Assembly (NCBI RefSeq): GCF_000282315.2
Contig: NZ_AKJN02000002.1
Span: 248,001 to 312,000 of the forward strand
Reading direction: 5' to 3'
From: Pseudomonas sp. GM41(2012)
GTDB lineage: Bacteria > Pseudomonadota > Gammaproteobacteria > Pseudomonadales > Pseudomonadaceae
Length of the DNA stretch: 64,000 bases
A program made the translations under genes and the position numbers. This document shows, piece after piece, positions 13,027 through 52,080 of this stretch; position 1 is the stretch's first letter, and the number at the start of each line of letters is the position of its first letter. The notes beneath the pieces were generated by a model. It was not told the DNA's origin and searched no databases. It saw only the letters and a program-made list of their open reading frames with translations.

Positions 13027-14112
13027 ATGACCATTAGCGACGCACTGCATCGATTGCTACTCGACAACCTGACCACCGCCACCATTCTGCTCGATGCCGA
13101 ACTGCGCCTTGAGTACATGAACCCGGCGGCGGAGATGCTCCTGGCCATCAGCGGTCAGCGTAGCCATGGGCAGTTCATCAGTGAGTTGTTCACCGAATCC
13201 ACCGAGGCGCTGAACTCCCTGCGCCAGGCGGTCCAGCAGGCACATCCGTTCACCAAGCGTGAAGCGATGCTCACCGCCCTCACCGGCCAGACGCTGACCG
13301 TCGACTACGCGGTAACGCCCATCCTGGCCAACGGCGCCACCATGCTGCTGCTGGAAGTCCACCCCCGTGACCGCTTGCTGCGAATCACCAAGGAAGAGGC
13401 GCAGCTGTCGAAACAGGAAACCAGCAAGATGCTGGTGCGCGGCCTCGCTCACGAGATCAAGAATCCTCTCGGCGGGATTCGCGGCGCGGCGCAATTGCTC
13501 GCCCGTGAACTGCCGGAAGAAAGCCTGCGCGACTACACCAACGTGATCATTGAAGAGGCCGACCGCCTGCGCAATCTGGTCGATCGCATGCTCGGCTCCA
13601 ACAAGCTGCCGTCACTGGCGATGTGCAATGTCCACGAAGTTCTGGAACGCGTTTGTCATCTGGTGGAGGCCGAAAGCCAGGGTTGCATCACTTTGGTGCG
13701 CGACTACGACCCAAGCATTCCCGACGTGTTGATCGATCGCGAACAGATGATTCAGGCCGTGCTGAACATCGTGCGCAATGCGATGCAGGCCATCAGCAGC
13801 CAGAACGAGCTGCGCCTTGGCCGCATCAGCCTGCGCACCCGCGCCATGCGCCAGTTCACCATCGGCCACGTGCGCCATCGTCTGGTGACCAAGATCGAAA
13901 TCATCGACAACGGCCCGGGCATTCCCGCGGAATTGCAGGAAACCATCTTCTTTCCCATGGTCAGCGGCCGCCCGGACGGTACCGGGCTGGGCCTGGCCAT
14001 TACCCAGAACATCATCAGCCAGCACCAGGGCCTGATCGAATGTGACAGCCATCCAGGCCACACCACCTTCTCGATCTTTCTGCCACTGGAACAAGGAGCC
14101 ACATCGACATGA
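13027..14112 (+). CDS. ntrB: Nitrogen-regulation sensor histidine kinase/phosphatase NtrB
   Basis: 361 residues from ATG 13027; the frame is open further upstream but that part has no family similarity. An N-terminal PAS domain (LLDNLTTATILLDAELRLEYMN) lies at about residues 10-120. The phosphoacceptor motif GLAHEIKNPLGGIRGAAQLL follows, then the kinase ATPase boxes IVRNAMQAI (N), DNGPGIP (G1) and GRPDGTGLGLAI (G2). There are no membrane segments, as expected for the cytosolic NtrB that answers to PII. It phosphorylates NtrC under nitrogen limitation. Its stop overlaps the ntrC start by four bases. Confidence 0.97.
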   Translation: MTISDALHRLLLDNLTTATILLDAELRLEYMNPAAEMLLAISGQRSHGQFISELFTESTEALNSLRQAVQQAHPFTKREAMLTALTGQTLTVDYAVTPILANGATMLLLEVHPRDRLLRITKEEAQLSKQETSKMLVRGLAHEIKNPLGGIRGAAQLLARELPEESLRDYTNVIIEEADRLRNLVDRMLGSNKLPSLAMCNVHEVLERVCHLVEAESQGCITLVRDYDPSIPDVLIDREQMIQAVLNIVRNAMQAISSQNELRLGRISLRTRAMRQFTIGHVRHRLVTKIEIIDNGPGIPAELQETIFFPMVSGRPDGTGLGLAITQNIISQHQGLIECDSHPGHTTFSIFLPLEQGATST

Positions 14113-15545
14113 GCCGTAGTGAAACCGTGTGGATCGTCGATGACGACCGTTCTATCCGTTGGGTCCTGGAAAAAGCCTTGCAGCAAGAAGGCATGACCAC
14201 GCAAAGCTTCGACAGCGCCGATGGCGTGATGAGCCGCCTGGCGCGCCAGCAGCCGGACGTGATCATCTCCGACATTCGCATGCCGGGTGCCAGTGGCCTG
14301 GACCTTCTGGCGCGGATTCGCGAACAACACCCACGGCTGCCGGTCATCATCATGACCGCTCACTCCGATCTGGACAGCGCTGTCGCGTCCTATCAGGGCG
14401 GCGCGTTTGAATACCTGCCGAAACCGTTCGACGTTGACGAAGCGGTGTCGCTGGTCAAGCGCGCGAACCAGCACGCCCAGGAACAGCAAGGCCTGGAAGT
14501 CCCGGTCGCCTTGACCCGCACCCCGGAAATCATCGGTGAAGCGCCGGCGATGCAAGAAGTGTTTCGCGCCATCGGGCGCTTGAGCCACTCCAACATCACT
14601 GTACTGATCAACGGCGAATCCGGTACCGGTAAAGAGTTGGTGGCACACGCGCTGCACCGTCACAGTCCGCGTGCGGCTTCGCCGTTCATTGCGCTGAACA
14701 TGGCGGCGATCCCGAAAGACCTGATGGAATCCGAGCTGTTCGGCCATGAGAAAGGCGCGTTCACCGGGGCGGCCAACCTGCGTCGCGGGCGTTTTGAACA
14801 GGCTGACGGCGGCACGCTGTTCCTCGATGAAATCGGCGACATGCCGGCAGACACCCAGACTCGTTTGCTGCGGGTGTTGGCGGACGGCGAGTTCTACCGC
14901 GTCGGCGGCCATGTGCCGGTGAAGGTCGATGTGCGAATCATCGCCGCGACTCACCAGAATCTGGAAACCCTGGTGCATGCCGGGAAATTCCGTGAGGACT
15001 TGTTCCACCGCCTCAACGTGATTCGCATCCACATTCCACGGTTGTCGGACCGTCGCGAAGACATCCCGACCCTGGCCAAGCACTTCCTCAGCCGCGCCGC
15101 GCAAGAACTGGCGGTCGAGCCGAAGCTGCTGAAAAGCGAAACCGAGGAATACCTGAAGAACCTGCCGTGGGGCGGCAACGTGCGTCAGCTGGAAAACACC
15201 TGCCGCTGGATCACGGTGATGGCTTCGGGTCGCGAAGTGCACATCAGCGACCTGCCGCCGGAGCTGCTGAACCTGCCGCAGGATTCGGCGCCGGTCACCA
15301 ACTGGGAGCAAGCGCTGCGCCAGTGGGCCGATCAGGCGTTGGCTCGTGGCCAGTCGAGCCTGCTCGACAGCGCTGTGCCGGCGTTCGAACGGATCATGAT
15401 CGAAACCGCCCTCAAACACACCGCCGGCCGCCGCCGCGATGCCGCCGTTTTGCTGGGCTGGGGGCGTAATACCCTGACGCGCAAGATCAAGGAACTGGGG
15501 ATGAAGGTTGATGGCGGGGATGATGATGAGGGGGATGAGGGTTAA
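14109..15545 (+). CDS. ntrC: Sigma-54-dependent response regulator NtrC
   Basis: 478 residues. The receiver domain has the acidic pocket DDD at 11-13 and phosphoacceptor D55 (VIISDIRMPG). The AAA+ domain has Walker A GESGTGKE, the sigma-54 contact loop GAFTGA and Walker B GGTLFLDEIGD. The C-terminal Fis-type helix-turn-helix ends near LGWGRNTLTRKIKELG, followed by an acidic GDDDEGDEG tail. It activates sigma-54 promoters such as those in front of glnA and nrsZ here. The ATGA overlap with ntrB indicates coupled translation. Confidence 0.98.
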   Translation: MSRSETVWIVDDDRSIRWVLEKALQQEGMTTQSFDSADGVMSRLARQQPDVIISDIRMPGASGLDLLARIREQHPRLPVIIMTAHSDLDSAVASYQGGAFEYLPKPFDVDEAVSLVKRANQHAQEQQGLEVPVALTRTPEIIGEAPAMQEVFRAIGRLSHSNITVLINGESGTGKELVAHALHRHSPRAASPFIALNMAAIPKDLMESELFGHEKGAFTGAANLRRGRFEQADGGTLFLDEIGDMPADTQTRLLRVLADGEFYRVGGHVPVKVDVRIIAATHQNLETLVHAGKFREDLFHRLNVIRIHIPRLSDRREDIPTLAKHFLSRAAQELAVEPKLLKSETEEYLKNLPWGGNVRQLENTCRWITVMASGREVHISDLPPELLNLPQDSAPVTNWEQALRQWADQALARGQSSLLDSAVPAFERIMIETALKHTAGRRRDAAVLLGWGRNTLTRKIKELGMKVDGGDDDEGDEG

Positions 15546-15579: not shown

Positions 15580-15662
15580 ATCGCGGGCAAGCCTTGCTCC
15601 TACAGGATCTACGCCATATCAACATTGGCGTATGACCTGTAGGAGCAAGGCTTGCCCGCGAT
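15580..15662. repeat. REP doublet (REPIN-like), family A
   Basis: Inverted 27-nt arms at 15580-15606 and 15636-15662 match each other exactly and match the arms at 2590-2655. The element sits between the ntrC stop and the NtrC-type site of nrsZ. Confidence 0.88.
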
Positions 15663-15678
15663 GCTTTATGGGGCCTCA

Positions 15679-15695
15679 TGCACCGTGGCAATGCA
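15679..15695. promoter_or_regulatory. Candidate NtrC-binding site for nrsZ
   Basis: TGCACC-GTGGC-AATGCA has one perfect NtrC half site and a second matching at four of six bases. A second TGCACC half starts at 15692. The centre is about 178 bp upstream of the start predicted from the sigma-54 promoter at 15839. Confidence 0.5.
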
Positions 15696-15772
15696 CCGTG
15701 AACCGCAATCGCGCACAAACACTGATCCATTACCTCACCACTTTTCGCAATCGAACCCCTATCGAAAAAACA

Positions 15773-15799
15773 CGAAAGCCCCGGAATACGGGGCTTTCG
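15773..15799. terminator. Stem-loop terminator between ntrC and nrsZ
   Basis: A perfect 11-bp stem (CGAAAGCCCCG / CGGGGCTTTCG) with a five-base loop. The uridine-rich side (TGTTTTTTCG) is on the minus strand, but the stem could end ntrBC transcripts as well, separating that operon from nrsZ. Confidence 0.6.
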
Positions 15800-15838
15800 A
15801 CGTTTCAGCGCGACATTCTGTTTCAACTTGTTAAAACC

Positions 15839-15854
15839 TGGCACGCCCCCTGCA
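15839..15854 (+). promoter_or_regulatory. Sigma-54 promoter of nrsZ
   Basis: TGGCACGCCCCCTGCA is close to a perfect sigma-54 promoter (TGGCACG-N4-TTGCA), with the GG and GC at exact spacing. The predicted RNA start is near 15865. Confidence 0.88.
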
Positions 15855-15864
15855 ATAGTCCATT

Positions 15865-16090
15865 CAGTGATTCAGTTCACTACCCAGTTTCGGGGACCTT
15901 GGTACAGGCAGGCCGGGGATTCCCCTCTTTACACCGGGCTCACACCGCACAAGCGACGAGCCCAAGCAGTTTTGGGGCCCTTGATACAGGCAGGTCAGGG
16001 GTTCCTTCTTTACACCGGGCTCACGGCGCAATGCGCGAGCCCCGCCGTTTTGGGGACCTTGGTACAGGCAGGCCGGGGATTCCCTCTTTT
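15865..16090 (+). ncRNA. nrsZ: Nitrogen-regulated small RNA NrsZ (three-module)
   Basis: The gene is placed from the sigma-54 promoter to the pyrimidine/T-rich end at 16082-16090. Three repeated modules begin near 15891, 15973 and 16051 with a period of about 80 bp; each opens with GGGG-CCTTG-TACAGGCAGG-C and continues into a C/T-rich stretch. Modules 1 and 2 contain a strong stem-loop, GGGCTC paired with GAGCCC (15936-15963 and 16017-16042). P. aeruginosa NrsZ is encoded in the same position downstream of ntrC, depends on NtrB/NtrC and sigma-54, and is processed into shorter forms that affect swarming and rhamnolipid genes. Position, promoter and repeated modules make this the homolog. Targets in this strain are unknown and the ends are predicted. 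The 3' end abuts the stop of the convergent gene at 16089. Confidence 0.85.
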
Positions 16091-16529
16091 ATTGCTCTCG
16101 GAGATGGATCTCCAGCCGCCAGCGGTCATCGACCTCGCTACCGGCCCACTCGCCCTGCAGTGGCCGGGCCGCCACCACCGTCAGCAACAACCCCCCATCA
16201 CTCAAACGCACGCGCCAGTTCGCGCTCTTGTCGTTGATTTTGAGCTGACCTTTCTGCGCCTTTCCTTCAGCCTCGAACAGCAACGCGAGGCTACCGTCGA
16301 CGAACTCGCCGTGAGCCTTGGGTTCGTTGTTGAACCACACCACCAGTCCATCGCCCGTGACCTCGACCTGCTGCAATTCGCTGGGGTCGGGCGTGGTCAG
16401 GCGACCGATCATCAGCCCCACCATCACCCCGACAATCGCCAGCGAAGCCATCACTCGCGGGAATAGCTTCGAACGCGGGTCAGCTTCAGGCGTAGAATGC
16501 CGTTCATCTTTACCTTCGGAGCCGTGCAT
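16089..16529 (-). CDS. Membrane-anchored hypothetical protein downstream of ntrC
   Basis: 146 residues with a charged N-terminus (MHGSEGKDERHS), one transmembrane helix at about 26-45 (VMASLAIVGVMVGLMIGRL) and a soluble, probably periplasmic, beta-rich tail. No named domain is recognised. A gene of this kind occupies the same place between ntrC/nrsZ and trmL in P. aeruginosa. It is head-to-head with trmL: the two ATG codons share the bases CATG. Its stop codon lies at the very end of nrsZ, so transcripts from it would run antisense into the sRNA. Confidence 0.75.
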   Translation of the reverse strand: MHGSEGKDERHSTPEADPRSKLFPRVMASLAIVGVMVGLMIGRLTTPDPSELQQVEVTGDGLVVWFNNEPKAHGEFVDGSLALLFEAEGKAQKGQLKINDKSANWRVRLSDGGLLLTVVAARPLQGEWAGSEVDDRWRLEIHLREQ

Positions 16530-16983
16530 GTTTCACGTCATCCTTTTCCAACCAGAAATTCCGCCGAATACCGGCAACGTTATCAGGCTGTGCGCCAACA
16601 GTGGCTGCCACCTGCATTTGATCGAACCGCTGGGCTTCGAGATGGACGACAAGCGTCTGCGCCGGGCCGGCCTCGATTACCACGAGTATGCCACCCTGCA
16701 ACGCCACGCAGACCTCGCCAGCTGTCTGGAAAGCCTCGGTCATCCTCGGCTGTTCGCCTTTACCACCAAGGGCTCGCGGCCGTTCCACGATGCCAGCTTC
16801 GCCGAGGGCGATGCGTTCCTGTTCGGCCCGGAAAGCCGTGGTTTGCCGGCAGAAGTACTCGATGCCCTGCCCGGCGAACAGCGCCTGCGCCTGCCGATGC
16901 GTGAAGGCTGCCGTAGCCTGAACCTGTCGAACACCGTGGCGGTCGCCGTGTACGAGGCCTGGCGCCAAAACGGGTTCAAATAA
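16528..16983 (+). CDS. trmL: tRNA (cytidine/uridine-2'-O-)-methyltransferase TrmL
   Basis: 151 residues from ATG 16528, preceded by GGAG; the frame is open upstream but the family begins at MFHVILFQPEIPPNTGN. SPOUT-fold methyltransferase that modifies the wobble ribose of tRNA-Leu. Family motifs are PEIPPNTGNVIRLCAN at the N-terminus, FGPESRGLP, and the knotted SAM site LRLPM...SLNLSNTVAVAVYEAWRQ at the C-terminus. It is divergent from the membrane protein gene with overlapping start codons. Confidence 0.95.
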   Translation: MFHVILFQPEIPPNTGNVIRLCANSGCHLHLIEPLGFEMDDKRLRRAGLDYHEYATLQRHADLASCLESLGHPRLFAFTTKGSRPFHDASFAEGDAFLFGPESRGLPAEVLDALPGEQRLRLPMREGCRSLNLSNTVAVAVYEAWRQNGFK

Positions 16984-51770: not shown

Positions 51771-52080
51771 ACGTTGTGCGATTTTGCAGTAGGACTCAGC
51801 CCCTTCTGATGTATGAAAATTATGGCTGCCCATAATTATTGCCCAGCCATAAAAGTCAAAAAACCTTCAAACCACGCCACCACCTAGCCACGATTGCGCA
51901 TCCTCCCCCCTCCAGCTACCTTCAACCCGTCACTGCCAATTCAGTGACCGGGCCTGAGAACTCGAATTCGATGCAGAAACCAACCGGAGTTCTCCTTATG
52001 CATGCCCGCAATCTATTCAAAATTTTCGCTACCGCTACACCGGGTCACGCCCACCACCGCCCAAAAACCGGAGGTGCCCA
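51771..52080. other. Intergenic region upstream of the DUF3077 gene
   Basis: 310 bp. It contains an inverted repeat TTATGGCTG-N15-CAGCCATAA (51820-51852), a possible terminator of the XRE gene or an operator. A short ORF with a GGAG site (51998-52084, 28 codons, MHARNLFKIFATA) ends over the start of the DUF3077 gene; I do not call it as a gene but it could be a leader peptide. Confidence 0.45.

Follow-up and report, generated by a model that had tools for sequence, protein, structure and literature searches.

A three-module NrsZ RNA downstream of ntrC in Pseudomonas sp. GM41(2012) and the variable number of its loop hairpins among relatives

Downstream of glnA and ntrBC in Pseudomonas sp. GM41(2012), the 64,000-nucleotide stretch analysed here (the window) carries an intergenic region with a promoter-like box and tandem repeats, which raises the question of what RNA it encodes and which part of that RNA does the work. 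The original prediction, made from the letters only, took it for a nitrogen-controlled small RNA of the NrsZ type and proposed a covariance search. In this search, the Rfam family NrsZ (RF02695) matched positions 15881–16101 (+) over the full model length (1–236) with 147.3 bits against a cut-off of 76.9, so that the NrsZ identity was borne out. This is the sole NrsZ match in the source genome (E up to 10), and a search with R1, a module model built from related hairpins, likewise gave one locus. The predicted RNA of ~228 nt extends from 15865 to 16092 (+); both ends are estimates, the start being placed 12 nt after the GC of the –12 element because of the exact sigma-54 box and the usual 12-nt spacing, and the end at the last U-run. 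The proposed "nrsZ position" also holds, as the locus lies 3′ of glnA and ntrBC behind a TGGCACG-N4-CTGCA box; the preceding ntrC gene (14109–15545, +), recognised from its translation as a response regulator of 478 aa, has a homologue upstream of many of the related loci. On the other side, a convergent gene of 146 aa (16089–16529, –) overlaps the predicted 3′ end of the RNA by a few bases, and is followed by an open reading frame (16528–16983, +) which we take to be a trmL-like methyltransferase gene. Among 119 named loci, the nearest relative is P. mandelii OWC5, with 97.0% identity over ~7 kb of aligned DNA. The window RNA is an ordinary, well-preserved NrsZ of a Pseudomonas close to P. 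mandelii.

Three further elements were seen in the window. A perfect inverted repeat (15581–15606 and 15636–15661; TCGCGGGCAAGCCTTGCTCCTACAGG and its complement, by eye), which presumably resembles a REP pair of Pseudomonas, lies between ntrC and the NtrC-like site described below. A hairpin at 15774–15800 (CGAAAGCCCCGGAATACGGGGCTTTCG, by eye), immediately upstream of the sigma-54 box, is probably the ntrC terminator. Far downstream, positions 51916–51968 match the Rfam family c4-a1b1, the target of C4-type phage antisense RNA (48.9 bits; cut-off, 46.7), hinting at a prophage.

The three predicted modules are real: 45-nt repeat copies start at 15887, 15969, and 16047 (spacing, 82 and 78), and R1 gives exactly three matches in the window (E ≤ 2e-21; next best, E 0.14). 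The conserved part of the repeat is a hairpin, GGGGACCUUGG-UACAGGCAGG-CCGGGGAUUCCC, the loop UACAGGCAGG being identical in all three modules. Core hairpin 1 (15889–15932, +; loop, 15903–15912; R1, 66.5 bits) and core hairpin 2 (15971–16014, +; loop, 15985–15994; 57.3 bits) were both obtained in local folds, and both have a UCUUU (T3) tail; the loop-closing pair is A–U in core hairpin 2, and G–C in modules 1 and 3. Core hairpin 3 (16049–16092, +; loop, 16063–16072; 70.5 bits) has the tail UCUUUUAUU (T4) and is read, from the comparison of T-runs given below, as an intrinsic terminator. Two linker hairpins of the form GGGCTC...GAGCCC, at 15936–15963 (+; –14.5 kcal/mol) and 16017–16042 (+; –16.2 kcal/mol), separate the cores, and the RNA thus runs in the order leader, core, linker, core, linker, and core hairpin with U-run. 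The GGGG-CCTTG-TACAGG core of the original prediction is indeed repeated, although "CCTTG" and "TACAGG" turn out to be the stem and the loop of one core hairpin. The GGGCTC...GAGCCC stem-loops, which had been counted as parts of the modules, are really variable linkers: 285 distinct ones occur across the related arrays, and in 150 of them that were folded the median z is –2.74, with 87% below –1.5, indicating from the sequences that the linker fold is maintained while the sequence drifts. Nor is module 3 cut short, since its hairpin is whole and followed by the U-run, and the only missing piece is a linker after it. The full RNA folds better than 200 shuffled sequences (z, –3.06), its minimum-energy fold pairing module 1 with module 3 rather than forming the local hairpins. 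Open frames at 15828–16466 and 15632–16237 cross the region.

The claim of a near-perfect sigma-54 promoter at 15839 was confirmed at the sequence level by TGGCACGCCCCCTGCA at 15839–15854 (+), which matches the –24/–12 pattern TGGCACG-N4-CTGCA with 0 mismatches and is the only exact box in the window; at one mismatch or fewer, the window has three sites versus 0.64 expected by chance. Among 175 distinct arrays collected from relatives, a box with at least 8 of the 11 specified letters precedes 166, and all 11 letters are present in 151, GG and GC being required by the search itself. The NtrC-like site postulated at 15679 fared less uniformly. The sequence TGCACCGTGGCAATGCA (TGC-N11-GCA; 15679–15695, +) has 10 of 12 consensus letters, and many arrays have such a site at a corresponding distance; the window alone holds no more matches to the pattern than chance predicts (44 at three or fewer mismatches versus 44.5 expected). 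The best upstream site reached at least 10 of 12 letters in 97 of 156 arrays, 87 of the 97 falling in the bins 150–160 bp before the box, and merely 7–9 letters in the remaining 59; in control segments 450–660 bp upstream, which lie inside ntrC for arrays at ntrC, the score never exceeded 9. No copy relocated away from ntrC was scored with a site of 10 letters, and the same is true of those 59 arrays. Support for the site at 15679–15695, which is weak by itself, is positional and drawn from sequence comparison. Given this box, the neighbouring ntrBC genes, and what is published on P. aeruginosa, we infer that the window NrsZ would be under nitrogen control.

The comparison with relatives points to the hairpin loop as the constant element. 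It is identical to UACAGGCAGG in 515 of 521 candidate hairpins of the 175 arrays, an invariance that is partly ascertained because ACAGGCAG is part of both the R1 seed and the pattern used for collection. At three loci from diverged genera (L276, L277, and L278, of genera g13, g16, and g5), the loop is changed to TTTAGGCAGG or TTCAGGCAGG (L277 by eye), which suggests AGGCAGG as the deepest loop core. Two alignments bear on the stem. In A1 (36 of 72 distinct hairpins from the first 31 loci), 94.4% of the cells are paired, 6 of 11 pairs are changed on both sides (2.7 in shuffles), and 26 cells show double changes versus 4.5 in shuffles and at most 4 in slid controls, while further pair types are no more numerous than in shuffles (13 versus 14.3). 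In A2, which is model-aligned from the best 150 of 231 matches at 80 named loci (35 distinct) and overlaps with A1 in species, there are 9 double-change cells versus 3.2 in shuffles, and pairs with double changes are no more frequent than in shuffles (2 versus 1.4). As judged from these alignments, the core stem covaries.

The number of modules per array, in contrast to the loop, varies from one to eight. With identical arrays removed, the 175 comprise arrays of one (26), two (24), three (85), four (23), five (10), six (1), seven (4), and eight (2) modules; the loose hairpin finder counted eight in L003, where seven are real, and one spurious single in L180, which is cut by the locus edge, the eight of L192 are real, and arrays at the locus edges (L153, L164, L165, L232, and L250) may be undercounted. 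The collection scan holds at least 119 named loci, all counted by the script, of which the R1 search covered 80. P. putida HAI-2, for example, has four modules. At one locus of P. taiwanensis (L166), the modules lie 132 nt apart, and the sequence before the first one gave no recognisable –24/–12 box. When mapped on an ntrC tree of 136 arrays, the module number requires at least 35 changes versus 59.9 with shuffled labels, a soft figure, as good support is confined to 15 of the 133 inner branches. Traces of a recent unit duplication are present in only 9 of the 125 arrays that have at least three modules, and the spacing between modules is not always a multiple of three. Because relatives carry one to eight copies, the working unit is suggested to be the hairpin rather than the whole RNA.

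NrsZ is widespread in the genus, being found in 389 of 398 sampled genomes at E ≤ 0.01 and in 274 above the Rfam cut-off. R1 matches 262 of 298 sampled genomes of the family, in 16 of 19 genera, some of the matches being marginal (for example in genus g7, E 0.008, at a locus without a proper hairpin). Eight single-module loci, six from genus g15 and two from the genus of the window, score 37.7–57.8 bits against the Rfam cut-off of 76.9; some of these are located off ntrC, and several adjoin an MSHA-type pilus cluster. Candidates outside the Pseudomonas family were rejected as chance: 7 of 115 sampled genomes of the order gave weak matches (E 8e-6 to 0.009), and the hairpin filter detected no loop hairpin at the six loci obtained.

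A simple rule appears to govern how the RNA ends. A T3 run follows the core in 310 of the 346 inner hairpins, whereas the run is T4 or longer in 147 of 149 last hairpins and in 25 of 26 single ones (the spurious single of L180 included in the 26). The mean number of T in nine bases is 4.31 for 345 inner, 6.93 for 149 last, and 6.24 for 25 single hairpins, and in 143 of the 149 arrays, which are related and hence not independent cases, the last hairpin is T-richer than every inner one, with a tie in five. The window obeys the rule with the tails TCTTTACAC, TCTTTACAC, and TCTTTTATT of cores 1, 2, and 3. Because the last tail is nearly always the T-richest, the inner hairpins look built for read-through.

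Several known RNAs are comparable. The NrsZ of P. aeruginosa PAO1 studied by Wenner et al. 2014 reportedly has three modules. It shares with the window RNA the place after ntrC, the sigma-54 box, three modules, the ACAGGCAG loop motif, and a length of ~226–230 nt, and differs in belonging to another species, whereas relatives of the window RNA carry one to eight modules, some of them elsewhere. CrcZ and RsmY/RsmZ of Pseudomonas are also under two-component control and have repeated motifs in one RNA; they act by titration through protein-binding A-rich or GGA motifs, GGA standing in exposed hairpin loops of RsmY/RsmZ. The NrsZ core loop UACAGGCAGG contains neither an A-rich motif nor a GGA of the RsmY/RsmZ type. 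Activation of CrcZ is ascribed to CbrA/B in a review section (PMC9308961). The alpha-r14 small RNAs, such as NfeR1 of Sinorhizobium, resemble NrsZ in their three hairpins, which all carry one ultraconserved unpaired motif, in their variable stems, and in their relation to nitrogen stress, but as summarised in PMC10746234 their motif is the anti-Shine-Dalgarno CCUCCUCCC, NfeR1 is repressed by NtrC, and there is no common loop motif; CCUCCUCCC is absent from the core loops of the window. NfiR of P. stutzeri A1501 is, in the account of PMC6606865, likewise small, NtrC-dependent, Hfq-linked, and folded into a stem-loop, but it lies beside nasA. The single-module RNA of Stutzerimonas was considered as NfiR and ruled out, as the A1501 NfiR probe (Table 3 of PMC6606865) lacks ACAGGCAG by eye.

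For P. aeruginosa, the passages on NrsZ in one review (PMC8395346) give an RNA of ~226 nt in the ntrC–PA5126 intergenic region with 40- and 140-nt species, whose first 60 nt are active and which activates rhlA translation; another (PMC9308961) names the ACAGGCAG motif and the first stem-loop as functional. According to PMC6890931, NrsZ is present in Hfq CLIP-seq, the difference between conditions being not significant. Starting from the demonstrated family membership, location beside ntrC, –24/–12 box, and hairpin anatomy, we infer control and action as follows, and regard this as the best explanation as a whole and a likely one. NtrC and the sigma-54 RNA polymerase would produce the ~228-nt transcript under nitrogen limitation. 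The two inner cores, ending in U3 followed by A and C, would be read through, and the last, ending in UCUUUUAUU, would terminate. The U-rich single strand after each core may serve as an RNase cut site (RNase E is a guess) and as a seat for Hfq, such that one transcript would yield several units, each presenting the UACAGGCAGG loop on its hairpin. This loop would be the active site, base-pairing with mRNAs that hold CUGCCUGU-like stretches, and each initiation would supply more active units as the number of modules in the transcript rises. As spacers, the linker hairpins may prevent pairing between the self-complementary cores. The release of repeated pairing sites by processing, suggested in the original prediction, is plausible in view of the shorter species and the active first 60 nt in P. 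aeruginosa.

The mRNAs were surveyed by complementarity to the loop. The full complement CCTGCCTGTA occurs at nine sites in the source genome, three of which are the RNA itself and none of the six others in a 5′ UTR; the reversed control also gives six. These six were read as lying in coding DNA or on antisense strands, and the sense matches, named by eye, fall in gltB and a tssF-like gene. The gltB site (C12:171097–171106, L076) is an exact 10-nt loop complement in the coding sequence, and its 8-mer CTGCCTGT is preserved in 25 of 30 genomes. Because the site falls within a conserved protein motif, and because the five genomes in which it is disrupted all have an R1 match, gltB is a weak lead. 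A scan of ten genomes for the complement with GGA, taken as a Shine-Dalgarno-like element, and ATG returned 69 matches versus 21 for the reversed pattern, which is a poor control in that GGA and ATG are reversed too. The sole recurrence ahead of a real start codon in these ten genomes is CTGCCTGT shortly before a BON-domain lipoprotein gene, found in three of them from different genera (G438, G454, and G459; L106, L118, and L132) and absent from the genome of the window; it extends over the end of the SIS-domain gene ahead of it, so that its conservation may stem from protein coding. The remaining recurrences fall within reading frames, apart from a 28-mer that two genomes share without change; in the one genome checked, this 28-mer lies ~0.8 kb from a C4-type phage RNA. 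None of the complementarity candidates is convincing as a target.

The anatomy allows other readings of the short forms and of the repeats. Every core, as a G+C-rich hairpin with a U-run behind it, could be a terminator, leaky at the inner positions, and one promoter would then give a ladder of RNAs with one, two, and three modules through partial termination rather than cutting. The module ends at ~66, 148, and 228 nt from the estimated start are indeed near the 60-, 140-, and 226-nt forms given for P. aeruginosa in the review passages (PMC8395346), and the T3/T4 contrast shows that tail strength differs by position. However, the T-poverty of the inner tails and the strictly richest tail of the last hairpin point to selection for read-through, and the same review terms the species processed and lists a 40-nt form that fits no module end; partial termination seems to us unlikely. 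The repeats could instead make NrsZ mainly a decoy, whose one to eight identical exposed loops titrate a protein, as RsmY/Z or CrcZ do, without mRNA pairing. We know of no protein partner of the NrsZ loop. A loop that is nearly invariant while stems and linkers change, a copy number that has shifted so often on the weakly resolved ntrC tree, and the outcome of the complementarity scans would all suit a sponge. Against it stand the frequent single-module arrays (26 of 175, one spurious), poorly suited to titration, and, in the reviews, the activation of rhlA via its 5′ UTR and the activity of a single 60-nt module (PMC8395346 and PMC9308961), and we consider the decoy rather improbable. That the repeats are translated or a selfish DNA repeat without RNA function might be argued from the two open frames and the changing number of tandem units, but covariation, linker folding, box conservation, the spacings that are not only multiples of three, and the Rfam match fit an RNA and make this reading extremely improbable. 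Base-pairing by repeated loop units, which would be released from a probably NtrC/sigma-54-dependent NrsZ, is preferred.

Single modules with a –24/–12-like box were also found at sites other than ntrC. In Stutzerimonas and its relatives, the RNA adjoins a META-domain lipoprotein gene, with a dinB or DUF6701 gene on the other side, and DUF6701 genes adjoin it in further genera. DUF6701 was detected at E ≤ 1e-10 in 17 of 30 genomes picked mainly for one module, and in these the distance to the RNA is at most 210 bp in ten, ~3.7 kb in one, and ~16 kb in three, the gene lying elsewhere in the other three; no DUF6701 match was found in the genome of the window. The genes between, scanned in G503 and G154 only, include those for an MshL-type secretin (TIGR02519; 260 bits in G503 and 241, just below the cut-off of 250.2, in G154), an MshEN ATPase, and a pilin-like protein, by which the cluster is assigned from sequence as an MSHA-type pilus cluster. 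This cluster of ~16 kb lies against the RNA gene on either side, or with both at dinB (L323–L328, L334, and L339–L346): between ntrC and the RNA in G154, and between dinB and the RNA in G503. In G545, ~17 kb with DUF6701 at one end lies between the RNA and trmL, and the RNA stays beside ntrC. G410 has two RNA copies, one on a contig with ntrC and DUF6701 and the other near trmL on another contig. In copies on either side, taken from different genomes, the common sequence begins near the promoter and extends to the U-run, after which the copies diverge (by eye). One reading is that the pilus cluster was once bracketed by two RNA copies; independent insertions of the cluster are also possible. 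Tentatively, NrsZ may be one form of a wider hairpin family with a single-loop RNA of 44 nt as its unit, standing alone in several genera including Stutzerimonas and partly off ntrC, and amplified beside ntrC to two to eight copies; the copy number would be a gene-dosage dial of the nitrogen response, a one-U change would decide where the transcript ends, and the RNA gene would be a repeated point of insertion or rearrangement for the MSHA-type cluster. Among the publication titles listed for NrsZ and for ACAGGCAG with Pseudomonas, none concerned module number or relocated copies, and the original NrsZ paper may describe variation.

While the RNA itself belongs to the known NrsZ family, the variation in module number, the U-run rule, and the second address are worth following. 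The Rfam model misses many relatives, and the nitrogen RNA is probably unannotated in such genomes. The sequence points to the working part of NrsZ, an almost invariant loop on a covarying stem. Natural arrays with one to eight copies make the question of dose testable as output versus module number, and the T3/T4 rule offers a one-base test of read-through versus termination. If the wider-family reading is true, the MSHA-type pilus may come under the same control as NrsZ.
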